From Arthrobacter luteolus NBRC 107841 (GTDB lineage: Bacteria; Actinomycetota; Actinomycetes; Actinomycetales; Micrococcaceae), in contig NZ_BCQM01000001.1 in NCBI RefSeq assembly GCF_001552075.1, forward strand, positions 310,001 to 374,000: a DNA stretch of 64,000 bases, given 5' to 3'. Under the pieces are notes generated by a model that made no database searches, had not been told where the DNA came from, and worked only from the letters and a program-made list of their open reading frames with translations. Of this stretch, positions 19,549-34,868 are shown piece after piece. Position numbers and translations under genes: made by a program. The first letter of the stretch is position 1, and every line of letters starts with the position of its first letter.

Positions 19549-19575
19549 GGCCCCCACGGGCGCCACCGTCCATCG

Positions 19576-21369
19576 CTAACCCCGTTTGATCGTCCGGCGG
19601 CCCGCGTCGAGCCGCCGGGTCCAGCCACGGCTGTCCAGGTATTCCAGCAGCGGAATGACCACCCGCCGGGTGGTGCCCAATGCCTGACGCGCCTCGCTGG
19701 TGGTAAACGGCTGCGGCAAAGCAGAAAGCTCGCGCATGGCCAGGGCAGGCGCCCGCGGCAGCAGGACAATTCCGTCCCCCAGCCGCAGCACCCGCCCGCT
19801 GCGCTCCGCAGCAGCCAGTTCCCGGGCACCCAGGCCCAGTATGTCCAGGTCCCCCGCTTCCGGAGCCGCGAACGGATGGTCCGTCAGCCGGCTTTCCAGC
19901 TCACCGATGCCTTTCTCTGCCGCGCCTAGATCCCGGCGCTCTCCGGGAAGGTTGATATAGCCGGTGCTGTGTTCCAGGCCCGCGGCTTGGAGGATGGGGT
20001 CCAGCAGGGCACCGCCAGCGGGTCCGATCAGGTCCCGCGCCGCGCCGAGGGAAAGCCCCGCAGCCAGCGGATCCCGTTCCCTGAGCTGCTCGACGGCGGT
20101 GCGCAGCCGCAGCGTCCATACCTCCAAAGCCGGTTCGTGCACCCACCATTCACCGAAGGCCTTCACCCCGCTGGGCACCTGCCCCAGCCCGGTGACGCCC
20201 ATTCTGCGCAGCTCATTGACCCGTACCGCTCCCCGGCGGGCCACTTCGGTCAGCGGGTCTCCCCCGGCTGACATTGCTGCAAGTGCGGTGGCCCTTCGCC
20301 CGCTGTCCCCGCGCCGGCTCAGCGCCGGTGGTTCGATGTCGAGGATCTGCGCCCCGGCCAGCACCGATCTGCTGCCGCCCGCCCGCAGCACCAGCCGGTC
20401 GCCCAGCTCGAGCGGGATCCGGCGGTCAAGCATCAGCCGGGCGTGGTCCCCGTCGAAGGGACGCAGGCGCCCCGGCACCGCAGCGGTGCCGATGTGGACC
20501 ATCAGCTGCTGCGGCGCATCCGTGAAAGAGGAGCCCATGGTGCGCCGCACGTCGACGGCGTTCACCAGCGGCCAGCTGTCCCCGGCGAGGAGGACGTCGC
20601 CGCGGTGGATCCCGTCTGCGGATACCCCTGATCTAATGTTGACCGCCACCCGGCTGGTGGGGCCGACGGACCCGACAGCCCGGTTGCAGCTGTGCAGCCC
20701 CCGCACCGACACCGGTGTAGTACCGTCCGCACCGGCGATCATCAAGTTCTCGCCCTGCGCGAGTGTGCCGGCCGTCAGGGTTCCGGTGACGACCGTCCCG
20801 GCTCCGTTGATCGTGAAGGACCTGTCGATCCACAGCCGGACCCGGGCATTCGGCTGCGGTGCAGGCAGGGACCCCACCAAGGTGTCCAACGCGCTGCGCA
20901 GTTCATCGAGTCCGGTGCCATCGACTGCCGAGACCGTGATGGCCGGCGCGTCGCGGAGCCCGGTGCCGGCCAGTTCGGACCGGACCCGCGCCAGTACCCC
21001 GGGGGCGCCGCCGGGAGCGCGGTCGCTGCGCGTCAGCACCACGATCCCGCGGCTGATCCCCAGGGCCGCAATGGCATCTCGATGATCGCTGGACTGGGCC
21101 TGCCAGCCTTCGTCAGCCGCCACGACAAAGCAGACCGCGGGGGCCGGTCCTACCCCGGCCAGCATGTTGCCGAGGAACCGCTCGTGACCTGGCACGTCGA
21201 CAAACGCCACTTCGCGGCCCGAGGGCAGAGTTGTCCACGCAAATCCCAGATCGATCGTCAGTCCGCGGCGGCGTTCCTCAGCCCACCGGTCAGGCTCCAT
21301 GCCGGTCAGTGCACGCACCAGCGTGCTCTTGCCATGATCAACGTGCCCGGCCGTGGCCACCACAAACAC
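19576..21369 (-). CDS. selB: Selenocysteine-specific elongation factor SelB
   Basis: Carries Sec-tRNA(Sec) to ribosomes paused at a UGA followed by a SECIS hairpin. 597 aa, close to E. coli SelB. G1 GHVDHGKST is at residues 8-16 and G3 DVPGHERF at 58-65. The G4 position reads LTRSD (112-116), where the family has NKxD or TKxD. EF-Tu-like domains II and III follow, and the last 250 residues look like the winged-helix SECIS-binding repeats (ending VVIPLLEYLDSRGWTRR). It starts 2 bases after the selA stop, so it is in the selC-selA-selB transcription unit. Confidence 0.93.
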   Translation of the reverse strand: MFVVATAGHVDHGKSTLVRALTGMEPDRWAEERRRGLTIDLGFAWTTLPSGREVAFVDVPGHERFLGNMLAGVGPAPAVCFVVAADEGWQAQSSDHRDAIAALGISRGIVVLTRSDRAPGGAPGVLARVRSELAGTGLRDAPAITVSAVDGTGLDELRSALDTLVGSLPAPQPNARVRLWIDRSFTINGAGTVVTGTLTAGTLAQGENLMIAGADGTTPVSVRGLHSCNRAVGSVGPTSRVAVNIRSGVSADGIHRGDVLLAGDSWPLVNAVDVRRTMGSSFTDAPQQLMVHIGTAAVPGRLRPFDGDHARLMLDRRIPLELGDRLVLRAGGSRSVLAGAQILDIEPPALSRRGDSGRRATALAAMSAGGDPLTEVARRGAVRVNELRRMGVTGLGQVPSGVKAFGEWWVHEPALEVWTLRLRTAVEQLRERDPLAAGLSLGAARDLIGPAGGALLDPILQAAGLEHSTGYINLPGERRDLGAAEKGIGELESRLTDHPFAAPEAGDLDILGLGARELAAAERSGRVLRLGDGIVLLPRAPALAMRELSALPQPFTTSEARQALGTTRRVVIPLLEYLDSRGWTRRLDAGRRTIKRG

Positions 21370-21371
21370 GG

Positions 21372-22703
21372 CTAGCTGCTTTCAGTTCCGGACGGATCAC
21401 CGGTCCGCGCCAGGGCCCTGCGGACAGCCTGGACCAGCCGGTCGTCGTCGTCCTCCGGAATGCAGCGCAGATCCACCAGGCACGCTCCGCCGTGGACCCG
21501 CGGCAGCACTGCCGGAACCCCCGTGCGCAGCGCGTGGGCCACGTTCTCAGGGAGCTGCACAGCCCAGCCAGGCAGGGGCACGCCGGGCGCTCCCCCGCCG
21601 CCGACCCTCCCATCGTGCTCTACGACCGGGCAGCCCACGGCCGCAGCCAGTGTTTCGGCACGCTCCCGGAGCCGTCCGGGGTCGGCGTGCAGGGCCGCAG
21701 CTACCGGCGGCTCTTCCCCGGACACTGTTGCTTCCAGTGCGGCGAGCGCCAGTTTGTCTGCCCGCAGCGCCCGGGCCAGCGGATGCCGCGCCAGCCTGGC
21801 AATCATTTCGGTGCGGCCGAACAGGAGTCCGGCCTGCGGGCCGCCCAGCAGTTTGTCGCCGCTGGCAATCACGACGTCGGCGCCTGCTTCCAGCGCGCCT
21901 GTCACATCCGGTTCCTCCGGAAGCAGGGGGTCCGGGGCCAGCAGGCCGCTGCCAAGATCCACGACCAGCGGGACGTGGTGTGCCTCGGCCAGCTTCCGGA
22001 GCTGCCTTATGTCGACGCTGCTGGTGAACCCGCTGATGCGGAAGTTGCTCGGATGGACCTTGAGCAGGCATCCGGTCTGCTCGCCCATGGCGGACTCGTA
22101 GTCGCTCAGGTGGGTCCGGTTGGTGGTGCCCACTTCCCGGAGGCGGGCACCGGTCGATTCGATGAGCTCAGGGAGTCTAAACCCGGCGCCGATCTCCACC
22201 AGCTCACCGCGGCTGATCACCACTTCGCGGGTTCCGGCCAGGGCTGTGGTGGCCAGCAGAAGCGCAGCTGCACCGTTGTTGACCACCAGCGCGTCCCCGG
22301 CAGCAGGGCAGGCCCGCAGCAGGGCCTGGCGTGTTCCGGTTCCGCGCTGGGACCGCGATCCTGACGGCAGGTCCAGTTCGACGTCGACATAACCGGCCGC
22401 CGTCAGCAGCGCCTCCCGGGCGGACCGCGAAAGTGCGGCGCGGCCCAGGTTTGTGTGGACGACGACGCCGGTGGCGTTGAGCACTGGGCGCAGCGACGTG
22501 GCACCGCGGGCCGACACAGCGGCGAGGACTCCCGGTTCGACGTCCCCAGGTGCCAGCCCGCCGTGACGCGCCTGGTCCTGGAACCCGCGGACGATGGAGC
22601 GGATCATGTCCTCCCCGAGCCGTGTCCGGGCCCGCTGCACCTCCGGATGAGCCAGCAACCGGTCGGTGCGCGGGATGCGCCTGCGGGGGTCGTCGTTGCC
22701 CAC
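21372..22703 (-). CDS. selA: L-seryl-tRNA(Sec) selenium transferase SelA
   Basis: PLP enzyme (443 aa) that converts Ser-tRNA(Sec) to Sec-tRNA(Sec) with selenophosphate. The Schiff-base lysine K284 is in SGDKLLGGPQAG; other family blocks are NATGVVVHTNLGRA (77-90) and DLPSGSRSQRG (111-121). The GTG start sits behind GGAGGGAC. It lies 36 bases after the tRNA-Sec gene and 2 bases before selB, so all three are likely one transcript. Confidence 0.95.
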   Translation of the reverse strand: MGNDDPRRRIPRTDRLLAHPEVQRARTRLGEDMIRSIVRGFQDQARHGGLAPGDVEPGVLAAVSARGATSLRPVLNATGVVVHTNLGRAALSRSAREALLTAAGYVDVELDLPSGSRSQRGTGTRQALLRACPAAGDALVVNNGAAALLLATTALAGTREVVISRGELVEIGAGFRLPELIESTGARLREVGTTNRTHLSDYESAMGEQTGCLLKVHPSNFRISGFTSSVDIRQLRKLAEAHHVPLVVDLGSGLLAPDPLLPEEPDVTGALEAGADVVIASGDKLLGGPQAGLLFGRTEMIARLARHPLARALRADKLALAALEATVSGEEPPVAAALHADPGRLRERAETLAAAVGCPVVEHDGRVGGGGAPGVPLPGWAVQLPENVAHALRTGVPAVLPRVHGGACLVDLRCIPEDDDDRLVQAVRRALARTGDPSGTESS

Positions 22704-22739
22704 GTCCCTCCTTCGGGATCAGTTTCGACTGCGCAAAGT

Positions 22740-22834
22740 TGGCGGAGGCGGACGGGAATCGAACCCGCCAGACCGGGATGCCCGGTCTCACCGGTTTTGA
22801 AGACCGGGGGGCCCACCAGGACCCGGACGCCTCC
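22740..22834 (-). tRNA. selC: tRNA-Sec (anticodon UCA)
   Basis: 95-base selenocysteine tRNA with CCA encoded. Read on the minus strand: acceptor GGAGGCGT against CCGCCTCC (seven pairs plus a mismatched eighth), 6-bp D stem GGGTCC/GGGCCC with the short loop TGGT, anticodon arm CCGGT-CTTCAAA-ACCGG with anticodon TCA, long variable arm AGACCGGG/CCCGGTCT, and T arm GCGGG-TTCGATT-CCCGT. The six-pair D stem, four-base D loop, extended acceptor and long variable arm are the marks of bacterial tRNA-Sec. It is the first gene of the selC-selA-selB unit. Confidence 0.97.
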
Positions 22835-22840
22835 ATGAGG

Positions 22841-22846
22841 ATGCTA
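22841..22846 (-). promoter_or_regulatory. selC -10 hexamer
   Basis: Minus-strand TAGCAT, 6 bases before the mature 5' end of tRNA-Sec, so transcription may begin at the mature end with little or no 5' leader. Confidence 0.55.
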
Positions 22847-22863
22847 ACACCGCACGCTTCTCC

Positions 22864-22869
22864 TAGACT
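22864..22869 (+). promoter_or_regulatory. selD -10 hexamer (leaderless)
   Basis: TAGACT, 7 bases before the selD ATG. It is back to back with the selC -10, with 17 bases between them. Confidence 0.6.
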
Positions 22870-22876
22870 GGCCGCC

Positions 22877-23881
22877 ATGAACGGGAACATTGCCCCTGAC
22901 CAGGAAGCGCTCCGACTCACCGGATATGCCCACGGCGGGGGGTGCGCCTGCAAGATTCCGCCGGGTGAGCTCGAGGACGTGGTCCGTGGCCTGGTGGGCC
23001 AGGCCCATCCCGATGTGCTGGTGGGACTCGACGGCGGGGATGACGCATCCGCTGTTCTGGTGGGCGCGGACCTCGCCCTGCTGTCGACCGCGGACTTCTT
23101 CACCCCGGTGGTGGACGATGCCTACGACTGGGGCCGGATAGCGGCCGCGAACGCGCTCTCGGACATTTATGCCATGGGCGGTCGTCCCATCAGCGCCATC
23201 AACCTTGTGGGCTGGCCCCGGGATGTGCTGCCCATGGAACTGCTGACCGAGGTGCTGCGCGGAGGGCTGGCGGTTGCCTCCGAAGCCGGCTGTCCCGTGA
23301 CTGGCGGGCATTCCATCGACGATCCGGAACCCAAGTACGGGATGGCTGTCACCGGCATCGCGGACCCTGACAAGCTGCTGCGCAACGATGCTGCCCGCCC
23401 CGGGCTTCCGATCACGCTGACCAAACCCATCGGCCTCGGTTTACTGAACAACCGGCACAAACAGACCGGGGAGGTTTTTGCCGAAGCCATTGCGGTCATG
23501 GTGCAGCTGAACCGTGACGCTGCCGAGGCCGCAGTTCAGCGCGGAGTCCAGGCCGCCACGGACGTGACCGGATTCGGACTGCTGGGGCACCTGTACAAAA
23601 TGTGCCGGGCCTCCGGTGTAGGAGCGGTCATTGACCGGAACGCGGTGCCCCTGGTCGCCGGCGCCCCCGAGGCCCTGCGGGATGGCTTCATCTCCGGCGG
23701 AACGCGCCGCAACCTGGACTGGGTCCGGCGCCATCTGCAGCCGGGGCCGGGCATCTCCGAGGAGGACCTCCTGGTGCTGGCCGACGCCCAGACCTCCGGC
23801 GGCCTGCTGGTGGTCGGTGAACTGCCCGGCTACCCCGTGGTGGGCTATACGACTGAAGGTCCGGGAATCGAAGTACGATAA
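22877..23881 (+). CDS. selD: Selenide, water dikinase SelD
   Basis: Makes selenophosphate from selenide and ATP, the selenium donor for SelA. 334 aa. The active-site segment GGGCACKIPP has C23, C25 and K26 in the positions of C17, C19 and K20 of the E. coli enzyme, so this is the Cys form, not a selenoprotein. Further family blocks are GGDDASAV and TGGHSIDDPEPKYG. ATG 22877 is chosen over the long upstream open frame, which crosses the tRNA gene. It is divergent from selC and convergent with the formate dehydrogenase operon. Confidence 0.95.
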   Translation: MNGNIAPDQEALRLTGYAHGGGCACKIPPGELEDVVRGLVGQAHPDVLVGLDGGDDASAVLVGADLALLSTADFFTPVVDDAYDWGRIAAANALSDIYAMGGRPISAINLVGWPRDVLPMELLTEVLRGGLAVASEAGCPVTGGHSIDDPEPKYGMAVTGIADPDKLLRNDAARPGLPITLTKPIGLGLLNNRHKQTGEVFAEAIAVMVQLNRDAAEAAVQRGVQAATDVTGFGLLGHLYKMCRASGVGAVIDRNAVPLVAGAPEALRDGFISGGTRRNLDWVRRHLQPGPGISEEDLLVLADAQTSGGLLVVGELPGYPVVGYTTEGPGIEVR

Positions 23882-23884
23882 CGC

Positions 23885-23903
23885 CGGCCGGCTCAGCCGG
23901 CCG
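23885..23903. terminator. Hairpin between selD and the fdh operon
   Basis: 8-bp stem CGGCCGGC / GCCGGCCG with a TCA loop, directly after the selD stop and overlapping the last codons of the opposing nrfD-type gene. It is a compact shared terminator candidate. Confidence 0.4.
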
Positions 23904-24981
23904 TAGTGATCGAATCATGGGTGATGCCCGCCCGGCGGCGCGCTGCCAGGCGGTTCTTCTGCGGTTCGATCGTGTAGCGGGGATCCTCTGCCGACGCGAT
24001 GCCCGCGCGCAGGATCCCGAACCGGGTGAGCGCCGATGCGCCGAGCAGGGACACCCCCGCAGCCGCCGCGATGGCCCTGTTCCGGCCGCCGAAGAGGGCG
24101 GCCAGTCCGCCTGCAACGGCCAGCCGCTCACTCCACCTGAGCATCTTCCCCGGCCCACCGAGATGAAGCGGCTCAGCAGCGATGGGGTCCATGTTCTTTT
24201 CCATGATCCGGACGGCGGTCAGCTCACCGGCGACGCCCAGCACGGCCAGCGCGCGGGCCGGTCCGGTCTCCCTGACCGGAGTGGTGATCATGGCCAGGCC
24301 GCCCGCAGCGAGGCTGGCAGAACTGACAAAAACGAACGGCAGATCCTCCCGTGCGGCGTTCCAGGTCGGATTCGCGGTATTTGAAAGCAGGACCGCGGTG
24401 TAGGCGGCCAGAGGTGTGGCAAAGACGGCTGCTTCAAACCCCGCCGGCCCTTCCACGCCCCGGAGCAGCCGGCGCAGCGGCCCCAGCGGAAGCCGCGACC
24501 CGGTCATCCGGTCAATTTCGGACACCCCGGAAACTCCGGCACCGACGCTGAAGACCATAAGGATCCACGAGCCCACACTCATCGGGGAGGTGGGCTTGAA
24601 AGTCCGGAGCATGTGGTGGAACCGCTCTGGCCGGCCCAGATCCGCCACCAAGGCGACAGAGCCAACCCCCACGGCGGCGAGCGCGGCCAGCCGGCTGTTG
24701 CGGCACAGGACCCGCTTGCCGGCCAGCTGCGCACCGGCTCCGAGCAGCGCGGACCCGCCCGCCACACCGCCCAGGAAAAGGTAGGCAGCGATCGGGTTTC
24801 CCCACGGCGGTGCCTTGATCACCGGGCGGCCGTAATACGTGCTGAATTGCGCTTCCGGCACCATGGGGACTTCGCCGCGGCCTCCGCCATCCTTCCCTCC
24901 GGCCCGGCGTCGTTTGCCACCCCGCCTGCGGCGGCGCGGCGGTTCCGGCGGACGGTAGTCGTCGAAGTCGGAGACCGTCAC
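23893..24981 (-). CDS. NrfD-type membrane subunit of formate dehydrogenase
   Basis: 362-aa membrane protein of the NrfD/PsrC family, probably passing electrons from the iron-sulfur subunit to quinone. The first 40 residues are a very basic Pro/Arg tail; then come PVIKAPPWGNPIAAYLFLGG, a family hallmark, and about eight hydrophobic helices. It replaces the haem-b FdnI/FdoI subunit of E. coli enzymes. The start overlaps the upstream beta-subunit stop by 4 bases. It is the last gene of a three-gene operon. Confidence 0.88.
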   Translation of the reverse strand: MTVSDFDDYRPPEPPRRRRRGGKRRRAGGKDGGGRGEVPMVPEAQFSTYYGRPVIKAPPWGNPIAAYLFLGGVAGGSALLGAGAQLAGKRVLCRNSRLAALAAVGVGSVALVADLGRPERFHHMLRTFKPTSPMSVGSWILMVFSVGAGVSGVSEIDRMTGSRLPLGPLRRLLRGVEGPAGFEAAVFATPLAAYTAVLLSNTANPTWNAAREDLPFVFVSSASLAAGGLAMITTPVRETGPARALAVLGVAGELTAVRIMEKNMDPIAAEPLHLGGPGKMLRWSERLAVAGGLAALFGGRNRAIAAAAGVSLLGASALTRFGILRAGIASAEDPRYTIEPQKNRLAARRRAGITHDSITTAG

Positions 24982-25973
24982 GCCCGGCCTCCTGCGAGGA
25001 ACGCCGCGGCCGCCGCAGCGAGCATGCCGGCAGCGGCAAGTCCCGCCCGCTTGTACATCCGCGGCAGGTCTGCAGTGGGCACCCGGGGATCCGGCGGGAG
25101 CCCGTAGACCTCCGGCTCATCCAGGAGCAGGAAGACGGAACCGGTGCCGCCGACACCGTCCGAGTCATTGGCCCCGTACAGGCGTGCCTCGGTCAGCCCC
25201 TGCGCATGGAGTTCGGCCACCCGCTCTTTGGCCGTGGCGACCATGTGCTCGCGCTCGCCGTATTTGATCGACGTCGTGGGACAGGTCTGGGCGCATGCCG
25301 GTGTCTGGTCTTCGACGAGCCGGTCATAACACAGGGTGCATTTCTGGGCGACGCCAACATTGTGCACGGGAGCCTGCTCCCCCGGGGTGAAGTCGCGGTC
25401 GTTCTTCGACTGGACGGTGCCGTTTTGGCGCCGCTCGATCACCCCGAAGGGGCACCCGGCCACGCAGGTTCCGCAGCCGTTGCAGACGTCTTCCTGCACA
25501 ACCACGGTCCCGTGTTCTGTCCGGAACAAGGCCCCGGTGGGGCAGACATCGAGGCAGCCGGCGTTTGTGCAGTGCTTGCACACGTCGGAGGACATCAGCC
25601 AGCGGAAGTCAGGAGTATCCGGCGGGGTGGTGTCAGTGCCGGCCAGGTTCGCGGCCTGGCCCTGTCCGGGCGCGCCGATTTTAGGCATCCCGAGATTAAC
25701 CAGGGCACGGCCGGATTCGCGGGCCCGGTCAATCTGCTCTCCGTCCTGCTCGACGAACGCGACGTGCCGCCAGGTATCCGCGCCCAGCGACCCGGTGTTG
25801 TCATAGGAAGACTCAAGCAGTTCGTAGCTGGAATCGGCGGGGTTGCGGTTCCATTCCTTGCACGCGACCTCGCAGGCCTTGCAGCCGATGCAGATGGAGG
25901 TGTCCGTGAAGAACCCCTTCCGGGGGTGCCCGGTATGCCGGAGGTGGTCCGGGGATTCGGTCAGCGGGTTCAT
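24978..25973 (-). CDS. Formate dehydrogenase iron-sulfur (beta) subunit
   Basis: 331-aa ferredoxin-like subunit linking the catalytic subunit to the membrane. Four cysteine groups for 4Fe-4S clusters are visible: CIGCKACEVACKEWN, CKHCTNAGCLDVCP, CNGCGTCVAGCP, and CTLCYDRL with a distal CAQTCP. The C-terminus (LAAAGMLAAAAAAFLAG) is a single membrane anchor as in FdnH. No signal peptide. It overlaps fdhG and the NrfD gene by 4 bases each. Confidence 0.92.
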   Translation of the reverse strand: MNPLTESPDHLRHTGHPRKGFFTDTSICIGCKACEVACKEWNRNPADSSYELLESSYDNTGSLGADTWRHVAFVEQDGEQIDRARESGRALVNLGMPKIGAPGQGQAANLAGTDTTPPDTPDFRWLMSSDVCKHCTNAGCLDVCPTGALFRTEHGTVVVQEDVCNGCGTCVAGCPFGVIERRQNGTVQSKNDRDFTPGEQAPVHNVGVAQKCTLCYDRLVEDQTPACAQTCPTTSIKYGEREHMVATAKERVAELHAQGLTEARLYGANDSDGVGGTGSVFLLLDEPEVYGLPPDPRVPTADLPRMYKRAGLAAAGMLAAAAAAFLAGGRA

Positions 25974-28900
25974 TCGTTGTTCTCCTTCGTCTCCTGGCCC
26001 GTGGTGCGGCCGGGACCGGTGAGTTTCTGGTTGCCGGTCGCCGGGGTCGCCCCTGCCCGGGACTGGTACTCCGCGATCAGCTCCAGGAGCGCGGTGCCGC
26101 GGGGGCGCCTTCCCGGAACGATTTCGCAGGACCCGGCCTTGGATTCCTGGATCTGCACGTTTGGATCGAGCGTCACGCCGAGCAGGTCATTGGCGCTGTC
26201 CCCGGACACCACGGCCTCCGACCCAACGCCCCAGTGGTAGGGCAAGCCGATCTGGTGGAAGGTCCGCCCACCCACGATCAGCGGCTTCACCCTGTCGGTC
26301 ACCAGCACCCTGGCCTCGATCGCTGAGCGGGGCGAGATGATGGTGGCCCACCCGTAGGGCTCCAGACCCCGCTCAGCTGCCAGCTCCGGAGAAACTTCGC
26401 AGAACATTTCCGGTTGGAGTTCCGAGAGATAGGGCAGCCATCGGCTCATACCCCCTGCCGTGTGGTGCTCTGTCAGCCGGTAGGTGGTGAAGACGACGGG
26501 GTAGACCTCGGACCCCGGCATCCCGGCGCTGGGCGCGCTGAGGTTGTCCGCCCGCGGATAGGTCAGCCGGGCAGGGTTCTGCTGCTGCTGGTACAGCGGG
26601 TTCGCGACCGGGGATTCCTGGGGCTCGTAGTGGGTGGGCAGCGGCCCGTCGACCATGCCTTTCGGCGCGAACAGCCAGCCCTTGCCGTCCGACTGCATAA
26701 TGAACGGGTCGTCACCGGCCAGCGCTGCCGCTCCGCCGGCGTCGAGGTCCGGAGCGGCGTCAGGGGCACGGTCCACGGGGAAATCCGGTACGTCCTGGCC
26801 GGTCCACCGTTTCTGTTCCGGGTCCCACCAAACGTACTTCTTGCGTTCGCTCCACGGTTTGCCGTCGGGGTCGGCCGAGGCCCGGTTGTAGAGGATCCGG
26901 CGGTTGGCAGGCCAGGCCCAGCCCCATTCGGAGGCTGCCGGCCCCTGCTCCTGTCCCGGCAACCGGTCAGCGGCATGATTGATTCCGTCCGCATAAACAC
27001 CGGTGTAGATCCAGCATCCACCGGAGGTGGAGCCGTCGGCCCGCATCTGGGTGTAGGAGGACAGCGGGGTCCCGGCCTCGGGTCCGGTCAGGTGCATGCC
27101 GTTGATCTCCGCCAGCACCGCTTCCGGATCGGGTTCGCCGTGTTCGTTGACCGGGTAGTCCCAGGTCAGGTCCAGCAGCGGCCGGTCCCGCTCATCCGTT
27201 GAGCCTGCAAGCTTCGCGCGGATGCGTTTGCCGAGGTCGTAGAAGAAGTCCAGTTCACTCTGGCAGTCGCCCGGCGGCCGGACCGCCTGGTGCCGCCATT
27301 GGAGCATCCGCTGTGTCTGGGTGAAGGAGCCTGCCTTCTCCACGTGGGTTGCCGCCGGCATAAAGAAGACTTCGGTGGCGATGTCTTCCGTCTTGAGTTC
27401 ACCGGAGGCGATTTCCGGTCCGTCTTTCCACCATGTTGCCGATTCGATCAGGCTGAAGTCCCGCACCACCAGCCACTTCAGGTGGGACATGCCCAGCCGC
27501 TGCATCCGTCCGTTGGCTGAGCCGATGGCGGGGTTCTGGCCGAAGACGAAGTAGCCGTCAACGTCGCCGTCGAGCATGCTCATGACCGTGTTGTACGTTC
27601 CGTGTGGTCCGTTGATCCGTGGCAGGTACTGGTAGGCCCATTCGGAGTCCTCGGTGGCGGCGTCGCCCCACCAGGCCTTGAGCAGGCTGACGGTGTACGT
27701 ATCAGCGGCCGCCCAGTAGCCCTTCTGCTGCGGCGAGGCGATGCCCTCCAGGTACTGTTCCAGCGTCTCCATCTCGGCCTTGGGCATCGGGAGGTAGCCC
27801 GGCAGCAGGTTGAACAGCGTGGGGATGTCGGTGGAACCCTGGATGCTGGCATGACCGCGCAGTGCCATGATCCCTCCGCCAGGACGACCAACATTGCCCA
27901 GCAGCAGCTGCAGGATGGCAGCGGTCCGGATGAACTGGGCGCCCAGCGTGTGCTGAGTCCACCCCACGGCATACGCGAAGCAGGTCGTCCGGTCCCTTCC
28001 GGAGTTCTCCGTGATGGCCCTGGCCAGATAGTCGAAGTCGGCGGGGGAAATTCCGCAGGCTTCCTGCACCATCTCCGGTGTGTAGCGCGCGTAATGCCGT
28101 TTCAGGATCTGGAAGACGCTGCGGGGGTGCTGCAGCGTGGTGTCCTGTTCAAAGTCGGGCCTGCCCATGGAGGGGCCGCCGCTGCCGTACTGGTCGCCGG
28201 CGGCGCGCTTCGAGGTGTCGGCACCGTGCTCATGCTGCTGCGCTTCGTGGTCCGTTCCGGCTTTCCGCTGATAGGCCCAGGAAGACAGATCGTAGTGCCC
28301 GGTCTCCGGGTCGTATCCGGAGAACAGTCCGTCGAGGTCCTCGGTGTCGCGGAACTCTTCGCCGACCAGCGTCGAGGCGTTGGTGTAGGCGAGGACGTAT
28401 TCCTGGAACCAGAGCTCGTTGCTCAGCACATAGTTGATCAGGGCGCCGAGGAGCACAACGTCCGAGCCGGCGCGGATAGGCAGGTGCTTGTCCGCCACGG
28501 CGCTGGTACGGGTAAACCGAGGGTCGACGTGGATGACCTTCGCGCCTCTTGCCTTAGCCTCTGTCACCCACTGGTAACCGACAGGGTGGCATTCGGCCAT
28601 GTTGGATCCCTGGATGACAATGCAGTCGGCGTTAGCCATGTCCTGGAGCGATTGTGTGGCGCCTCCCCGCCCAAACGAGGTTCCCAAACTGGGAACCGTG
28701 GCGGAGTGTCAAATACGGGCCTGGTTCTCCAGCTGGATCGCACCGGCGGCAGTGAAGAGCTTCTTGATCAGATAGTTCTCTTCATTGTCGAGTGTGGCCC
28801 CGCCCAAGCCGGCAATACCCATGGTGCGCCGCAGCGGACGGCCGGCTTCATCATCCTGCTGCCAGTTGTTCCGGCGGGCTTCGATAAACCGGTCAGCCAG

Positions 28901-29275
28901 CATGTCGATGGCGGTGTCGAGTTCAAGTTCCTGCCAGTCCGTGGCGTGGGGCGCACGGTAGAGGAGTTTGGTCTGCCTGCCGGGAGCGTTGACCAGCTGC
29001 TCGCTGGCCGCGCCCTTGGGGCAGAGCCGTCCCCGGGAAATCGGTGAATCCGGATCGCCTTCGATCTGGACAACCTTCTCGTCCTTCACGAAGACGCGCT
29101 GCCCGCAGCCTACGGCGCAGTAAGGGCAAACACTCTGAACCACCCGGTCTGCAGTGGAGGTCCGCGGTGTGATCTCCCGGGTCTGGGCAGAGGTCACGGC
29201 TTCTCCGCGGCCGAGTGAATCACTCGACCGGAACTGCCGAACCACCGGCCATTCAAGGAAGCTGAACCGCGACAT
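25970..29275 (-). CDS. fdhG: Formate dehydrogenase alpha subunit, selenoprotein (UGA read as Sec189)
   Basis: Molybdopterin-bis-MGD enzyme that oxidises formate to CO2; 1101 residues including one selenocysteine. The frame runs through an in-frame TGA at 28709-28711. Both sides are in the same frame and match FdnG/FdoG: ENQARI before and HSATVPSLGTSFGRGG after, against NQARV-U-HGPTV in E. coli. The N-terminal cluster motif is CPYCAVGCGQ (after residue 55) with RLCPKG later. ATG 29275 is chosen because it follows TATGGT by 7 bases and gives the usual MSRFSFLEWPVVRQ start; the frame is open to 29533. There is no Tat signal, so it is probably cytoplasmic. Without Sec decoding it would look like two broken genes. 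Confidence 0.95.
28679..28697 (-). promoter_or_regulatory. SECIS hairpin in fdhG
   Basis: On the mRNA strand, 11 bases after the UGA, a perfect 7-bp stem GGTTCCC / GGGAACC closes a 5-base loop AGTTT. E. coli fdhF has the same 11-base spacing and a similar loop (AGGTCT closed by C-G). The bulged U of the E. coli hairpin is not present here. A looser lower stem may form between CTCCGCC before it and GGCGGGGAG after it. Confidence 0.85.
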
Positions 29276-29282
29276 ACGGCCT

Positions 29283-29288
29283 ACCATA
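29283..29288 (-). promoter_or_regulatory. fdhG -10 hexamer (leaderless)
   Basis: Minus-strand TATGGT, 7 bases before the fdhG ATG at 29275. Confidence 0.55.
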
Positions 29289-29309
29289 GCGGATCGTGCC
29301 GCTCCTGGG

Positions 29310-29879
29310 TCAGTCCCGGCGGGTCCGGTAGCGCAGATAGGCAGTGCCGCCGGTAAAAGTCCTCTGGCCGGCGAGTTCCAGGTCCAGGTGGACGCCGTCG
29401 GGCAGGGCACGCAGGCCGCCGCCCACCAGCTTTGGAACCACGAAGAGCCGGAACTCGTCAACGAGGCCCGCACGGATCGCCTCCGCCGCCGTCGTCGGCC
29501 CGAAAATCTCGACCATGCCCTCGGCATCCTCAACGATTCTCTGCAGCTCTGCCAGGCTCAGCTGCGGCACGATACGGGCCCGGTCAGAAGCCAGCTCGTT
29601 TTCCGTCAGCGTCGACGACACCACAACCTTGCTGATCCCGCGCCAGCGGCGGGCGAACTCCCGCATGGCCACGGGCGTTTCTTCAGTGTCCGGAAGGGTC
29701 TCCCAGTACTCCATCAACGCATAGGTTTTCCGGCCGAGCACTTCCGTCGATACCTCAGCCATCCGCTCGACGTGCACGGCAAACATGTCGTCTGCAGGGC
29801 CTGTCCACTGGAAGTCTCCGTCCTGATCAGCGACGAAGCCGTCCAGGGAAACTGTCGCCGTAAACATCAGGGTTCCCAT
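29310..29879 (-). CDS. Dihydrofolate-reductase-like (RibD C-terminal) protein
   Basis: About 189 aa of the RibD_C/DHFR-like fold common in actinobacteria as YwjB/YyaP-type proteins. Seen: FTATVSLDGFVADQDG near the start, GRKTYALMEYW, KVVVSSTL, and IFGPTTAAEAIRAGLVDEF near the C-terminus. It probably binds NADPH; the substrate is unknown. The start is uncertain (ATG 29879, 29897 or GTG 29903). It lies just before the fdhG promoter region on the same strand but carries no link to formate metabolism. Confidence 0.8.
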   Translation of the reverse strand: MGTLMFTATVSLDGFVADQDGDFQWTGPADDMFAVHVERMAEVSTEVLGRKTYALMEYWETLPDTEETPVAMREFARRWRGISKVVVSSTLTENELASDRARIVPQLSLAELQRIVEDAEGMVEIFGPTTAAEAIRAGLVDEFRLFVVPKLVGGGLRALPDGVHLDLELAGQRTFTGGTAYLRYRTRRD

Positions 29880-29927
29880 AGTGGTTCCAATCTCCATCTG
29901 CACAGGGGTGGCGGGTTGGCCGTCAGC

Positions 29928-30119
29928 TCAGGTTTTCTTCAGGTCCTCCGCGGGCATCACGATGATCCTGCTGGGCCCGCGGACACAGGTCAGCCGGTAA
30001 ACGTCCTGATAAGTTGCCACCCCGCGCAGCGGATGGCAACCGTGTTGGGCGGCAATTTCAAGGGCTTCGTCCAGATCATCGACGGAGAAGGCGGTGCTTT
30101 CTGGGAGAATAGCCGCCAT
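29928..30119 (-). pseudogene. Truncated VOC/glyoxalase-family gene
   Basis: Only the C-terminal half of a glyoxalase/VOC protein is present (AFSVDDLDEALEIAAQHG, then GVATYQDVYRLTCVRGP and IIVMPAEDLKKT), about 63 codons. VOC proteins of this type are usually about 120 residues or more. The missing N-terminal half is replaced by the start of phzF on the other strand; the two starts overlap around 30118-30120. A small intact protein cannot be excluded, but a remnant is more likely. Confidence 0.55.
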
Positions 30120-30987
30120 GACACCCGGTATCCTGCGTCTGACCGCCTTCGCTTCCACGCCCGACGGCGGCAATCCTGCCGGGGTGATGCTGGACGCATC
30201 GTCGCTGTCCACCGATCAGATGCAGCGGATCGCGGCGGAGGTCGGTTATGCGGAAAGTGCTTTCGTGACGCGTTCCGGCGCGGTCGGGGAGCCGGGCCGG
30301 ATCGCTGTCCGCTATTTCTCGCCCGTTGCGGAGGTGCCTTTCTGCGGCCATGCAACCATAGCGACCGCCGTCGCGCTGGCCGAACGCGGCGTCGCGGACA
30401 GCTTTGTCTTCGAGACCGCCGCAGGCGAAGTACCTATTACGACGTCCCCTTCGCCCGCCGGAACCACGGCTTCCTTCACCAGCGTGGAGCCGAAGGTCAC
30501 GCACATGGACCCCGGAGTCCTGGACCGGCTGCTCGGTCTGCTGGATCTGGCACCGGCGGACCTGCACGAGGCCTACCCGGTGCGGCTGTCCTTTGCCGGC
30601 AACACCCATCCAGTTCTCGTGCTGGCAGAGACGGCGGTCTTTGACGGCTTCACCTTCGGTCCGGACGCCGTGCGCGGCCTGATGGATGAACAGGATTGGA
30701 AAGGCACCGTGACCGTTCTGCATGTTCGTTCCCCCCATGAGTTTGAGGCGCGCAACGTCTTCCCGGTGGGCGCCATTACCGAGGACCCTGCCACCGGTTC
30801 CGCCGCGGCTTCCGTGGGGGCCTACCTGCGAGAGCTGGGTCTGGTAGAGGTTCCCGGTCGGGTGCTTATCCATCAGGGCCGGCATGTGGGCCGCCCCAGC
30901 CTCCTGACCGTGGACATCCCCGCCGCCGGTGGCATCCGGGTCTCGGGCACGGCCACCGAGATCGACCAGGCCCAGCCGGCCAGGTAA
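30118..30987 (+). CDS. PhzF-family isomerase
   Basis: 289-aa protein of the PhzF/diaminopimelate-epimerase-like fold. Family marks: FASTPDGGNPAGV near the start, VGYAESAFVTR with the glutamate equivalent to PhzF E45, FCGHATIATA, and EDPATGSAAASVGAYL near the C-terminus. No other phenazine genes are nearby, so this is one of the many PhzF-like proteins of unknown substrate. ATG 30118 is preferred to the frame start at 30094; GAGAAT lies 7 bases upstream as a weaker -10. Confidence 0.88.
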   Translation: MTPGILRLTAFASTPDGGNPAGVMLDASSLSTDQMQRIAAEVGYAESAFVTRSGAVGEPGRIAVRYFSPVAEVPFCGHATIATAVALAERGVADSFVFETAAGEVPITTSPSPAGTTASFTSVEPKVTHMDPGVLDRLLGLLDLAPADLHEAYPVRLSFAGNTHPVLVLAETAVFDGFTFGPDAVRGLMDEQDWKGTVTVLHVRSPHEFEARNVFPVGAITEDPATGSAAASVGAYLRELGLVEVPGRVLIHQGRHVGRPSLLTVDIPAAGGIRVSGTATEIDQAQPAR

Positions 30988-31039
30988 GCCGGGGCTGGGA
31001 GGGCTTGCGGACCCGCCCGGGGGATGCTTGCATGACCGC

Positions 31040-31465
31040 ATGCGAACCAGCCCCGCTGCTCCCCTGCTGCTCACCACCCTGTCAGCCTTTCAGGCTGCCC
31101 TTGCCGCCGGCGTCCCGTGGGGACGTGCCGCATTCGGCGGACAGCATGAGGGCAGGCTGCCGGCCCGGCTGCGGATCACCAGTGCGGTGGCCTCTGTGGT
31201 TTATGCCGCCGGCGCAGGCGCGCTTGTTTCTCCCGGCACGTCCCCCGGCACGCGGCGGGTAATCCTCCGGGGATGCGTTGGTCTCGGCACCGTGGGAACT
31301 GTCATGAATGCGGTCTCCCGCTCACCCCTGGAGCGGCTGTGGAGCGTCTGGTCCCTGGCGCTGGCCGTGAGCAGCTGGCGGGAACTGCGACGGCGGCGCC
31401 AGCGGGCCGGCAGTTTCCACGGCTGCGAGCCATTCCAACGCCTCCGAGTCCTGAGTGAAGTATGA
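31040..31465 (+). CDS. Hypothetical small membrane protein
   Basis: 141 aa with three or four hydrophobic segments (LLLTTLSAFQAALAAG, ITSAVASVVYAAGAGALV, GCVGLGTVGTVMNAV, WSVWSLALAVSSW) followed by an Arg-rich stretch. I do not recognise the function; similar small proteins are common in actinobacteria. ATG 31040 is chosen because the membrane region begins there; the frame is open from 30929. Its last 144 bases overlap the 3' end of the opposing STAS-like gene, which is unusual. Confidence 0.6.
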   Translation: MRTSPAAPLLLTTLSAFQAALAAGVPWGRAAFGGQHEGRLPARLRITSAVASVVYAAGAGALVSPGTSPGTRRVILRGCVGLGTVGTVMNAVSRSPLERLWSVWSLALAVSSWRELRRRRQRAGSFHGCEPFQRLRVLSEV

Positions 31466-31831
31466 AACCGGGTAAGACGGCCGGTGAATAGCTTGGAAAA
31501 AATGCCCGATTGTCTGTTCAACCGGTGAGGCTCCGACCAGCGCCATCCGGGTAGCGGAAAGGGCCTGGGCAAACTGTCTTAGTACCGCCGAGCTGGCATA
31601 ACGCATGCCGCGCATATCCACCAGCAACAGCGGGCTTGATCCGTCCCCGGTCAGCTTCTCAATGCGGGCGATGGCAGCGAGCGCCTCTGGGATTTCCAAT
31701 GTTGTATTTACTGGCCAGCGAACGAGGACGACGCCACAAGACAGCCGGGCGATCTCTGGCTGACAGGCCCCGCCCTGGGTAGAGGCTGGACATATGTCCT
31801 CGATGCCATTCGCTTCGTATGTTGGGATCAT
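31322..31831 (-). CDS. STAS-like domain protein
   Basis: About 169 aa. The body (VVLVRWPVNTTLEIPEALAA, then PLLLVDMRGMRYASSAVLR, ALVGASPVEQTIGHFFQ and SYFTQDSEALEWLAAVE) matches a STAS/SpoIIAA-like family that is abundant in Arthrobacter and of unknown function. The domain ends about 32 codons before the stop; the remaining residues coincide with the opposing membrane-protein gene and look like read-on sequence. ATG 31831, after AAGG, is preferred to 31885. Local base composition is less GC-rich than average. Confidence 0.65.
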   Translation of the reverse strand: MIPTYEANGIEDICPASTQGGACQPEIARLSCGVVLVRWPVNTTLEIPEALAAIARIEKLTGDGSSPLLLVDMRGMRYASSAVLRQFAQALSATRMALVGASPVEQTIGHFFQAIHRPSYPVSYFTQDSEALEWLAAVETAGPLAPPSQFPPAAHGQRQGPDAPQPLQG

Positions 31832-32075
31832 GTGCAGCCTTGAGACGTATTTGAACGCTGAATTGGGCCAGCGGCGGGGCAACACTCACCAGGCAGGAAT
31901 TTGGGGGAATCCACCCGGAAAGCCCGCCGCCGGCCTGCATCAATTTTACGGACTCCTTAACCGGCCAAACAGATGCAGGACCACCAGTTCGTGCAGACTT
32001 GTGCGCCAAAATGACCATCGCGTGCACTACGAATGGCGTGGACCACAACCGGAATCAGCGAGGTTGGCGGGTTCC

Positions 32076-33128
32076 TCAGAATCCGATTGATTTTCTGAGC
32101 GCCAGGACCGCCGAACGCAGTCGTTCCGGATCAGACCGCATTTCCGGCAGGGAAGCTCCCGTGGTCGTTTCGACAGCCCGCCGCATCGCTGCCACGCTGC
32201 TAAACCCGCTCGCTTCAGCTATCACCGTGAGTGGAGTCTTCCGCGGGTTCGGGGTGGTGAGGAGCTCAAGGGCATCCAACGCCCTGAGCGCACGAATGTA
32301 GCCATTTACCTGTAACTTTTGGTCTTCGAAAAGGTAGTAGAGAGCGCGGCGTGAAAGATGCGAGTACTCCGCGACCGCGTCCACATCCAGTGCTGGGTTC
32401 CGGGCGTTCTTCTGAATGAATTTCCTGATCGCCAGGATGCGGACCGTTCGTAGGTCGGCGGCGTCAGTATGTGTGTCGAACAGCGAGCCAACCAAGGCCG
32501 CCATGACTGATCGGACGACTGGAAGGAGGCGATCCACTTCCTGATCCATGTCCGGATGCTGCCAGCCTGACAGCACTGGAACTATCAGAGACCTCACCAC
32601 GGGGTTAGACCTGATATCTGTCAGCGCGTGTAATTGCTGCACGGACTTTTCGTCCATTCCGAGCAGCCCGCGGTCTATGTTTATCTGCACTGTCCTGAGT
32701 CCGGCTGGTGCATGGAAACTACCGGAAGACGAGAGATCAATGAACCTCACCGCACCTGGCACAACGGTTTCGGACCCGCCCGGGAAGGTGAACCCCGCGC
32801 AGGCAGTTTTGAAATGCACCAAGCGGATCTCATCGGAAGGCGTATCCCCCTTCCAGTACCCGGCGGCGGGCTCATTAGTGAGTTCCACAAGACTGAACCC
32901 CGAGCCGGTCAGGCCTACCGCGGTCGGATTAAAGCTGCGGTGCACCACCTTTTCGGTTTTCTCCAGGCGCATGGGTAAATCGACGGCGGAGCCGTACCAC
33001 GTGCGCCAGTGCTCGAATTTCTCGTCCGGGCTTAACCTGCCCGGCACACGATAGCGGGTGAGGCGTCCCCGCCGTGGCAATGAACTCGAGCCGGGAGCAT
33101 CGTCACAGGCAGGAAGCATAAAGTCCAC
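32076..33128 (-). CDS. AraC-family transcription regulator
   Basis: About 350 aa. The C-terminal 100 residues carry the two-helix-turn-helix AraC domain (IQKNARNPALDVDAVAEYSH, LSRRALYYLF, then LTVIAEASGFSSVAAMRRAV). The N-terminal 200 residues resemble the AraC-binding-like domain of regulators such as those for aromatic or alkene catabolism. The GTG at 33128, after GGAAGG, is chosen; the open frame reaches 33401 and would overlap the next gene. GC content is lower than in neighbouring housekeeping genes. The target is not obvious. Confidence 0.82.
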   Translation of the reverse strand: MDFMLPACDDAPGSSSLPRRGRLTRYRVPGRLSPDEKFEHWRTWYGSAVDLPMRLEKTEKVVHRSFNPTAVGLTGSGFSLVELTNEPAAGYWKGDTPSDEIRLVHFKTACAGFTFPGGSETVVPGAVRFIDLSSSGSFHAPAGLRTVQINIDRGLLGMDEKSVQQLHALTDIRSNPVVRSLIVPVLSGWQHPDMDQEVDRLLPVVRSVMAALVGSLFDTHTDAADLRTVRILAIRKFIQKNARNPALDVDAVAEYSHLSRRALYYLFEDQKLQVNGYIRALRALDALELLTTPNPRKTPLTVIAEASGFSSVAAMRRAVETTTGASLPEMRSDPERLRSAVLALRKSIGF

Positions 33129-33249
33129 GGAGCCTTCCGGTTGTACGAAACCCGAGCCTAAATAATGGCATCCCCGTAGGACGCCCCCATGAACTGTTAC
33201 CCCGTACTTCCACGACGTTCCAGACCGGGGTTCCGCGAACGCCTGGTCT

Positions 33250-33804
33250 CTACCCCTGCAAACCGGGCTGCACCCGGTGGATTTGCACCTGGATCTCCCG
33301 GATGGCAGCGCCCAGGATCCCGCTTGAGAGCAGTCCAGCACCGAGAGGTCCGGAGGCGTCGGAGCCAAGGGGCGGAAGAAGCCGAAGCACTGCCTGCTCA
33401 TTCGCGGTCAGCTGCTCCAGCTGCCAGCGGATCTCTTCCTGCACCAATTCCGGCTGGCCGGGGTTGTCGAGAGAGACCGCCTTAGCTGCGTACGCCGCTG
33501 CGCCCAGCGCATGGGCGCCCATGTGAGCAACCGCTGCAGCTTGGGCAACCGATCTGGCGGCCGCAGCACCAGCAGGAGTCGTCGCGGCACCCGCGGCTTT
33601 CACAGCGGTCAGGCGTTTGCCGATCTCATCGGCAGCGGTGCTTTCCCCACGGCTGTAAGCACCCGCACGAGCCAGGGCATCAAACAACTGCTCTTTCGAC
33701 AACGCATCAGCCTCAAAAAGCGGGAGCACATGTTGGGCGCATTCGACGGCCCACCGCGCGGCTATCCGCCGGTCCGGGTCGCTGAGAGTCTGCAGGGAGG
33801 CCAC
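33250..33804 (-). CDS. Putative immunity protein (Imm5-like), orphan
   Basis: 184-aa all-helical, Ala-rich protein. The pattern LSDPDRRIAARWAVECAQHV, then ARAGAYSRGE, then AAVAHMGAHALGAAAYAAKAV, matches the putative immunity protein family that occurs with polymorphic toxins. No toxin gene is visible on either side, so it may be an orphan antitoxin-like gene. The GTG start has a weak ribosome site. It lies between the AraC regulator and a membrane protein on the same strand. Confidence 0.65.
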   Translation of the reverse strand: MASLQTLSDPDRRIAARWAVECAQHVLPLFEADALSKEQLFDALARAGAYSRGESTAADEIGKRLTAVKAAGAATTPAGAAAARSVAQAAAVAHMGAHALGAAAYAAKAVSLDNPGQPELVQEEIRWQLEQLTANEQAVLRLLPPLGSDASGPLGAGLLSSGILGAAIREIQVQIHRVQPGLQG

Positions 33805-33907
33805 GTTCAGACTCTGTCACACGGGAGGCACCGCCGGGAACCATATGGATACCCCGAAAGTACTTGCAAGCCCGCGGCACGCTTCCACCTCTGTCCCCTC
33901 CGGCTTG

Positions 33908-34759
33908 TCACTGATGGACTACACCGGCAGCCGCTTTTTCGGGTTTCTGCGTTGGCTCCGGTTTCTGCCTCGCCCGCGAGCGGCGTTTACGACGGCGGCG
34001 GAGTGGACCGTTAAAGGGCGGACGGGGCTGGCCAATCCGCGGTCCGGTCCAGTACCTCCCGCCGATCAAAATGCCTACCAGGGCTCCGTAGGCCCACGCA
34101 TGGGGAAGCGCTATCTGATCTGTTGCACCACCGGCGAAGATCAACACGAAGTAGATAACGGGCAGGCCCAGGATAAGGAGGCCGTTTCTGATTTCCAGCG
34201 ACGGCGGGAAGCGGAATAGTGCCCAGCCCGCCATCAGCGCGGCAACAAGGACGGCAACCGACGCCTGCGTCGGTGACAGGAGGAGAAGCTGCGCTATGCC
34301 GATGCCGAGCAGCACCAGGGCGCAGAATCCGTTGATCACCGCCAGGCGCCACCCTCCGGTGAAATTGCCGTCCGCCTCGGGGATGCGCTGACGCCTGTGC
34401 CTGAATGCTGAACCGGCGCGCGGACCCAGCCAGACGTAGCCGCCCGCAATCGCGCCGACCAGGAACCCGAGAAACCACGGTCCGGCTGAGGGGATATCAA
34501 GGGAACCTTCGACGGTGATCGAGATGAGCATGCAGTAGTTCACGATGAACGTCCAGGACATCACGTTGAAGGCACGCACTGACTGTGAGGCGATGCGATA
34601 CACAAGAGCTGCGTAGACCGCCCCAACCGCCAGGAACACGGACGCCTTCGGCAGGTTATTGCCGGCCAACCACGTGAACAGCGCCAGCGTCAGGACGATC
34701 ATCCCGGCATGCAGGTACCGAACGTTCATCTGATCGAATTTCCTCAGCAATGCCCCCAT
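33908..34759 (-). CDS. Hypothetical multi-pass membrane protein
   Basis: 283 aa with about seven hydrophobic segments (for example YLHAGMIVLTLALFTWLAG, FLGFLVGAIAGGYVWLG, GFCALVLLGIGIAQLLLL, GLLILGLPVIYFVLIFAGG) and a strongly basic C-terminal tail ending in Lys/Pro-rich sequence. I do not recognise the family. ATG 34759 lies 7 bases after TACGCT, which supports the start. It is probably read separately from the immunity-like gene downstream. Confidence 0.65.
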   Translation of the reverse strand: MGALLRKFDQMNVRYLHAGMIVLTLALFTWLAGNNLPKASVFLAVGAVYAALVYRIASQSVRAFNVMSWTFIVNYCMLISITVEGSLDIPSAGPWFLGFLVGAIAGGYVWLGPRAGSAFRHRRQRIPEADGNFTGGWRLAVINGFCALVLLGIGIAQLLLLSPTQASVAVLVAALMAGWALFRFPPSLEIRNGLLILGLPVIYFVLIFAGGATDQIALPHAWAYGALVGILIGGRYWTGPRIGQPRPPFNGPLRRRRKRRSRARQKPEPTQKPEKAAAGVVHQ

Positions 34760-34766
34760 GGGTCCA

Positions 34767-34772
34767 AGCGTA
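34767..34772 (-). promoter_or_regulatory. -10 hexamer of the 283-aa membrane protein gene
   Basis: Minus-strand TACGCT, 7 bases before the ATG at 34759; no Shine-Dalgarno sequence. Confidence 0.5.
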
Positions 34773-34868
34773 GGGCTATGAAGGCACGTTCACATTCAAG
34801 CCGCCGTACGAGTCAGTGCCGGGACGTACACGGGCCACGGAATGTGCTGGAACGACGCCGGCGGGGGG

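Follow-up and report, generated by a model that had tools for sequence, protein, structure and literature searches.

Is the stop codon that lies inside the formate dehydrogenase gene of Arthrobacter luteolus NBRC 107841 the end of a protein, or is it decoded within a longer one? The gene, fdhA, occupies positions 25970 to 29275 on the minus strand of the window, the 64,000-nucleotide stretch of contig NZ_BCQM01000001.1 analysed here, and would encode an alpha subunit of 1101 residues with the TGA at 28709 to 28711 (codon 189) read as selenocysteine (Sec). As the first-pass annotation had claimed, this TGA alone breaks the frame, and no other stop or frame break occurs in 1101 codons. It had also expected standard gene calling to break the gene, and a mechanical list of open reading frames does give both predicted pieces, one at 25970 to 28687 opening on a TTG (905 amino acids) and one at 28709 to 29533 (274 amino acids). 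However, two RefSeq plasmid relatives carry an annotated full-length CDS that spans the TGA, and the actinobacterial formate dehydrogenase has a model of its own in NCBIfam, NF041513. Judged from sequence, the codon is very probably read as Sec, and fdhA would be one gene, neither two genes nor a pseudogene.

Comparison with relatives supports the ATG at 29275 as the start of fdhA, the frame just upstream of it being closed by a stop in three of them (L015, L016 and L044). An in-frame ATG at 29287 was considered and rejected, since stops in that frame occur in the same relatives. The letters of this second ATG fall in a TATGGT box whose end lies 7 nt upstream of the ATG at 29275. Given the upstream stops and the position of the box, a leaderless start at 29275 is the preferred prediction.

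Read through the TGA, FdhA scores 1953.4 bits against NF041513 (cut-off 1400) and 941.9 bits against TIGR01553 (cut-off 814.2), both being whole-protein profile scores. Solved relatives align with it over nearly its whole length, and similarity continues across the TGA as had been proposed, both sides being aligned in the printed alignments with PDB entries 1h0h, 9qm0 and 8cm4. Opposite the TGA, two of these show X, presumably Sec, and one shows C, and in all three the next residue is a conserved His (His190 of FdhA). Counting along the printed alignment places Arg473 opposite residue 441 of 9qm0. We take residue 189 (Sec or Cys), His190 and Arg473 to fill the roles of metal ligand, conserved His and conserved Arg; cysteines 50, 53, 57 and 85 were also noted, and FdhD is encoded elsewhere in the genome.

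It could be argued that the TGA is a sequencing or assembly error and that the true codon is TGC or TGT, given that TGA and TGC are one base apart and that the family has Cys paralogues with TGC. Yet among the 155 of 162 loci examined that bear the active-site motif, our own genome included, the codon is TGA in 141, TGC in 14 and nothing else, a ratio that is not a frequency because the Cys loci were picked for the absence of a stop, having been fetched since genome searches showed none there; several loci represent one genome reached twice. This tally makes a sequencing error very unlikely. Many of the TGA loci come from different assemblies, sel genes adjoin the gene, and a hairpin constraint accompanies TGA and not TGC, all of which leaves the error reading with next to no credence. 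Alternatively, the TGA might be a nonsense mutation in a decayed gene, as the single in-frame stop and the patchy presence of fdhA in the genus (2 of 29 genomes) could suggest. Such decay is exceedingly improbable in view of the otherwise unbroken frame, the one or more TGA codons reported in most full-length matches across the phylum, and the finding of tRNASec in the family only alongside FdhA.

That last finding comes from a sample of 295 genomes of the family. tRNASec was found in 70 of the 73 with a Sec-form FdhA, in none of the 5 with the Cys form only and in none of the 217 without FdhA. The three genomes in which a Sec form was present and tRNASec was not found (G049, G169 and G187) are each assembled in at least 100 contigs.

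The bacterial Sec-decoding trait, consisting of selA, selB, selC with a UCA anticodon and selD, is complete at this locus, and all four genes adjoin fdh, which bears out the claim that they lie directly beside fdhA. selD (22877 to 23881, plus strand) converges on the fdh genes and encodes selenide water dikinase (TIGR00476, 384.3 bits, cut-off 125) in its Cys form (GGGCACK). The other three lie on the minus strand: selC (22740 to 22834), a tRNASec with an encoded CCA, identified by ARAGORN and by RF01852 (79.6 bits, gathering 47); selA (21372 to 22703), encoding Sec synthase (TIGR00474, 423.9 bits, cut-off 267.9); and selB (19576 to 21369), encoding the Sec-specific elongation factor (TIGR00475, 279 bits, cut-off 242.25), whose C-terminal winged helix matches PF09107 with 57.7 bits (cut-off 23.2).

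Just after the UGA, a SECIS-like apical stem-loop of 8 pairs can be drawn at 28679 to 28697 (minus strand), with a GUU loop at 28689 to 28687 whose G is separated from the UGA by 19 nt; the TTG opening the 3' reading frame (28687 to 28685) begins inside this loop. The loop G and U never vary across 101 distinct Sec sequences, in which pairs covary at third codon positions: TA/CG in 76/17 at pair 17-29, CG/GC/TA in 97/3/1 at pair 20-26 and GC/AT in 83/4 at pair 14-32. In the Cys paralogues most of the pairing is disrupted. Pair 17-29 forms in 100 of 101 Sec versus 2 of 13 distinct Cys sequences and pair 20-26 in 101 of 101 versus 6 of 13, while the outermost pair 14-32 is non-discriminating (88 of 101 and 9 of 13). 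In 39 diverse sequences, changes on both sides of a pair filled 19 cells versus 5.3 in shuffles, none of 500 shuffles being as high; two of the five covariation measures were only weakly above shuffles (26/500 and 44/500). These counts, like the genome counts for tRNASec, are uncorrected for relatedness. Synonymous variability reaches its minimum among 227 codon windows at codons +1 to +7 (0.215 versus a mean of 0.548; 127 distinct Sec genes, 240 codons tested), whereas in 14 Cys genes these codons are absent from the eight least variable of 223 windows. Folding energy is unremarkable for the 43 nt of the hairpin stretch (z -1.05), and for 56 nt z is -2.32. A search of the genome with a hairpin model, which scored 150 of 2883 first-look candidates and covers selenoproteins with this hairpin type, returned one strong match (72.5 bits) and a second no better than chance (16.2 bits, E 6). 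Weak similarity to the model persists in the 14 Cys paralogues, with scores of 15.8-31.5 bits and E-values from 0.33 to 0.00016.

Near-cognate suppression, or decoding as a standard amino acid, might still account for read-through of the UGA in place of Sec insertion. The terminal stop of fdhA is itself a TGA, overlapping the fdhB start as ATGA, so UGA does act as a stop codon in this strain; a general reassignment of UGA was rejected on this ground. Together with the complete sel set, the SECIS-type hairpin and cysteine as the only replacement found at the site, this makes suppression very improbable, although slightly less so than error or decay. The identification of FdhA as a selenoprotein, first made in the first-pass annotation, is thus supported by the sel genes, the hairpin, the Sec/Cys exchange and the co-occurrence with tRNASec.

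Two further genes complete the enzyme, both on the minus strand. fdhB (24978 to 25973) encodes an iron-sulfur beta subunit (Fer4_11, 74 bits, cut-off 26.2) with one hydrophobic stretch, at its C-terminus, and it scores 167.1 bits against TIGR01582, under the cut-off of 334.7. The gamma subunit (23893 to 24981) is a membrane protein of the NrfD family (PF03916, 70.2 bits, cut-off 25.8). All seven genes of this cassette are also found on pYA7-1a, a plasmid typed as conjugative, with a site-specific integrase and a Tn3 transposase on opposite sides. In the Nonomuraea record NZ_LT559118.1 the stretch is without annotation.

We consider it almost certain, on genomic grounds, that the locus encodes a Sec-containing actinobacterial molybdopterin FdhA with hairpin-directed decoding by the adjacent sel genes and an NrfD-linked electron path. 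SelA, using selenophosphate from SelD, would convert Ser-tRNASec, the tRNA being the selC product, to Sec-tRNASec, which SelB would bring to the ribosome while binding the hairpin at 28697 to 28679, so that Sec would enter at the UGA and translation would continue. Once in place, Sec189 would coordinate the molybdenum or tungsten of the bis-pterin cofactor near His190 and Arg473; from formate, electrons would flow via FdhB and the NrfD-type subunit into the quinone pool. In these steps SelB binding, Sec insertion, metal ligation, catalysis and electron path are modelled on established biology. The enzyme probably requires selenium.

How the locus came to be here may be considered in light of transferred bacterial fdhA-selABC(D) loci, in which the Sec trait lies close to its only selenoprotein gene and is patchily distributed; in the excerpted texts, transfers are listed into Arthrobacter crystallopoietes BAB-32 and Arthrobacter sp. 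162MFSha1.1 (PMC1794560; PMC5029168). The A. luteolus locus resembles a further case, and we infer that its fdh-sel copy was acquired by transfer. Chances are about even that the 9.7-kb block (fdhA-fdhB-nrfD / selD / selC-selA-selB) is a self-sufficient module that is transferred as a whole among actinobacteria, with conjugative plasmids among its vehicles, and that has been gained and lost at the same locus within the genus. Were this true, a mobile module would carry both the decoding of UGA as Sec and the gene that needs that decoding. The excerpted text of PMC5330540 contains nothing on plasmids. The Sec/Cys paralogue pairs and the plasmid-borne copy offer natural material on the spread and loss of an extension of the genetic code.

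Among known systems, the alpha subunits of E. coli FdnGHI (1kqf) and of Desulfovibrio-type FdhA (1h0h, 9qm0, 8cm4) are homologous to FdhA; opposite codon 189 the latter have Sec or Cys, and E. coli FdnG has Sec. FdnGHI and FdoGHI of enterobacteria are defined by a Tat signal on the alpha subunit and an FdnI-type cytochrome b subunit. Neither feature was found in the FdhA complex: no twin-arginine occurs within the first 80 residues of FdhA, a simple hydropathy scan shows no hydrophobic stretch in it, and an NrfD-type protein serves as third subunit. The enzyme is therefore not an FdnGHI copy, and of the initial description as FdnG/FdoG-like only the homology of the alpha subunit stands. The sel genes beside fdh are another difference from the E. 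coli and Desulfovibrio-type systems. Similar in build is the membrane-bound enzyme of Rhodococcus equi 103S, with an FdnG-like alpha subunit, an FdnH-like beta subunit with one transmembrane helix and a third subunit of the NrfD family; its alpha subunit is cytoplasmic by PSORTB and lacks a signal peptide by SignalP, whereas DeepTMHMM predicts one, and the word selenocysteine does not occur in the excerpted description (PMC13332983). In gene content our locus resembles FDH1 of Actinomycetospora chiangmaiensis, where FdhA with Sec, FdhB, FdhC, SelA and SelB form one cluster, but there, in the table of the paper, a permease is assigned and SelD is not, whereas A. luteolus has all four sel genes beside fdh (PMC7176365). 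Formate removal by A. chiangmaiensis depends on selenite (PMC7176365), an effect for which its three Sec formate dehydrogenases could account. Relatives thus already provide described examples of a selenoprotein FdhA with adjacent sel genes, and the finding fits established knowledge.

The first-pass annotation read fdhA as a selenoprotein gene, and both that observation and its interpretation proved right: the lone TGA at codon 189, the adjacent sel genes, a site occupied by TGA or TGC only, a conserved hairpin and the co-occurrence with tRNA-Sec all speak for it. The minus-strand frame 29275-25970 encodes 1101 residues, its sole internal stop is this TGA (28711-28709), and its terminal TGA shares an ATGA with the start of fdhB. 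Read through, the protein reaches 1953.4 bits with NF041513, the model for actinobacterial formate dehydrogenase (cut-off 1400), and 941.9 bits with TIGR01553 (cut-off 814.2), and three Pfam domains, Molybdopterin, Molybdop_Fe4S4 and Molydop_binding, are above cut-off. FdhA aligns on both sides of the TGA in the three printed PDB alignments (1h0h, 9qm0 and 8cm4), where X or C stands opposite the TGA and the following His is conserved; Cys 50, 53, 57 and 85 and Arg473 are present in place. As anticipated, a simple list of ORFs splits the gene, giving a 274-aa ORF up to the TGA and a 905-aa ORF from a TTG at 28687, which starts within the loop of the hairpin.

The Sec-decoding set next to fdhA, claimed to be complete, is indeed so: selB (19576-21369), selA (21372-22703) and the tRNA-Sec gene selC (22740-22834, anticodon UCA, 79.6 bits against RF01852 with a gathering threshold of 47) lie on the minus strand and selD (22877-23881), which converges on the fdh genes, on the plus strand, all above curated cut-offs. 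SelD itself carries Cys, not Sec, in its motif GGGCACK. Two boxes of the form TAnnnT, TATGGT at 29283-29288 and TAGACT at 22864-22869, are each separated by 7 nt from the start ATG of fdhA and selD, respectively, and a similar box is repeated 5' of fdhA in several relatives. Their spacing suggests that both mRNAs may be leaderless. A gene for an HTH_18 (AraC-type) regulator lies at 32076-33401, about 2.8 kb upstream of fdhA.

Of 162 loci, which include those of the own genome, 155 show the active-site motif; the other seven (L002-L008) stem from weak matches in the own genome or from the tRNA search. The codon at the site is TGA in 141 of the 155, TGC in 14 and nothing else in any, a ratio that is not a frequency, because the TGC loci were fetched on account of genome searches reporting no stop and some of the 155 are the same genome reached twice. 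The TGC loci (L126, L127 and L146-L157) are paralogues with 62-65% identity to the query FdhA. FdhA matched at E 1e-100 or better in 78 of 295 genomes in the family search and in 123 of 396 in the phylum search, with the stop position checked only for search rows that were turned into loci. In the family, where the 14 top-ranked first-look candidates per genome were scored for tRNA-Sec, it was above cut-off in 70 of the 295 genomes; all 70 have FdhA at E 1e-100 or better, and tRNA-Sec was found in none of the 217 genomes without FdhA. Five of the 78 genomes with FdhA have only the Cys form at their checked sites, and none of these five yielded tRNA-Sec, which is present in all seven genomes carrying both forms. 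Among the 73 genomes taken as Sec-form, one of which (G148) matched only downstream of the site, 70 have tRNA-Sec (counts not corrected for relatedness); the other three (G049, G169 and G187) are each in at least 100 contigs.

Just 3' of the TGA lies a SECIS-like hairpin (28697-28679, minus strand), in which, counting from the T of the TGA (position 0), 14-21 pair with 25-32 and enclose a GUU loop. Neither the G nor the U of the loop varies among 101 distinct Sec sequences, even though this U is a third codon position; in the rest of the compared stretch of the same genes AGT makes up 15% of AGY and GGT 17.5% of GGN. Third-position pairs covary, 17-29 from TA to CG, 20-26 from CG to GC or TA, and 14-32 from GC to AT. 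Across 39 diverse sequences, 96.2% of cells are paired, a share that is 91.0% for shuffles and never above 67.0% when the pairing is slid, and there are 19 two-sided changes versus 5.3 in shuffles; three pairs show two-sided change (matched by 26 of 500 shuffles) and eight further pair types occur (matched by 44 of 500). Among 227 windows along 240 codons of 127 distinct Sec genes, codons +1 to +7 show the least synonymous variability (0.215 versus a mean of 0.548), and in the 14 Cys genes the same codons lie outside the eight lowest of 223 windows. A covariance model of the hairpin gives 72.5 bits in the window, 68.3 and 74.5 in copies from two plasmids, and 15.8-31.5 in the 14 Cys paralogues; its second-best match in the own genome is at chance level (150 of 2883 first-look candidates scored). 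In the Cys forms the hairpin is largely broken but not wholly gone, since among 13 distinct sequences pairs 17-29, 18-28 and 20-26 form in only 2, 5 and 6, whereas 14-32, 15-31, 16-30 and 19-27 form in 9, 11, 13 and 13. Two observations count against the hairpin: the fold energy of the stretch alone is unremarkable (z -1.05), and the outermost pair is absent from 9 of the 39 diverse sequences.

FdhA and tRNA-Sec are both above cut-off in only 2 of 29 genomes of the genus. The rpoB sister of the window's genome, G012, has both flanks and no cassette. Its locus (L172) is also rearranged, the block 33961-35986 adjoining 19546, as compared with 19546-35986 in the window. In a second genome of the genus, G005, the cassette occupies the corresponding site, and its protein genes are 78-87% identical to those of the window's genome, as against 78-85% for three flanking genes; such similar divergence is what descent from their common ancestor would give. 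In summed tree branch lengths, however, the window's FdhA is about as far from that of G005 (0.23) as from that of G172, of another genus (0.21), while the rpoB paths are 0.04 and 0.21. These paths favor a lateral transfer between the two lineages, with a later loss in G012. Against this, single flank genes are common to that other genus on either side (a peptide-binding protein in G158, a RibD-like gene in G172), and recombination at a locus shared since long ago is a possible alternative. As to transfer, a published list includes Sec-trait transfers into two Arthrobacter strains (PMC5029168, in the part available).

The complete cassette, including tRNA-Sec and the TGA at codon 189, is also present on two plasmids. 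The 130-kb pYA7-1a of Arthrobacter sp. YA7-1 (NZ_CP110115.1, L183:10001-19874), typed conjugative, has the seven genes fdhA, fdhB, nrfD, selD, tRNA-Sec, selA and selB, with a Tn3-family transposase gene adjoining selB and a site-specific integrase gene two genes from fdhA; the other is the 239-kb plasmid 17 of Tsukamurella tyrosinosolvens (NZ_LR134459.1, L184:12001-21553), typed non-mobilizable. SelA matches at E 1e-30 fall in 145 plasmid records, not all necessarily SelA, and 5 of them cover at least 80% of the query. No title retrieved with selenocysteine and plasmid or mobile-element terms, in a search of mostly open-access papers, names a plasmid-borne Sec cassette of actinomycetes; the reference list of PMC1273633 names a Sinorhizobium megaplasmid.

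The proposed likeness to FdnG/FdoG holds for the alpha subunit but does not extend to the FdnGHI complex. FdhA has no twin-arginine motif in its first 80 residues and no hydrophobic stretch by a simple hydropathy scan. FdhB, a beta subunit of the ferredoxin type, has a single hydrophobic stretch, at the C-terminus, and the third gene encodes an NrfD-family membrane protein with three such stretches by the same kind of scan; FdhD is encoded elsewhere in the genome, away from the cassette. Thus, the window enzyme is not FdnGHI. In two related loci (L018 and L019) FdhA begins with MARRSFLQ, as compared with MSRFSFLE in the window protein (start 29275), and the former resembles the twin-arginine consensus. 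This conserved N-terminus could be what is left of an export signal, or a variant form of one. The formate dehydrogenase of Rhodococcus equi, as far as the available part of its report goes, has the same subunit arrangement, and for its alpha subunit a cytoplasmic location fits the PSORTB and SignalP results but not that of DeepTMHMM (PMC13332983). In Actinomycetospora, according to the accessible part of another report, formate removal depends on selenite and one of three Sec formate dehydrogenases is clustered with selA and selB (PMC7176365). The window case is well supported, and both its selenoprotein and the type of gene cluster that holds it have been described before.
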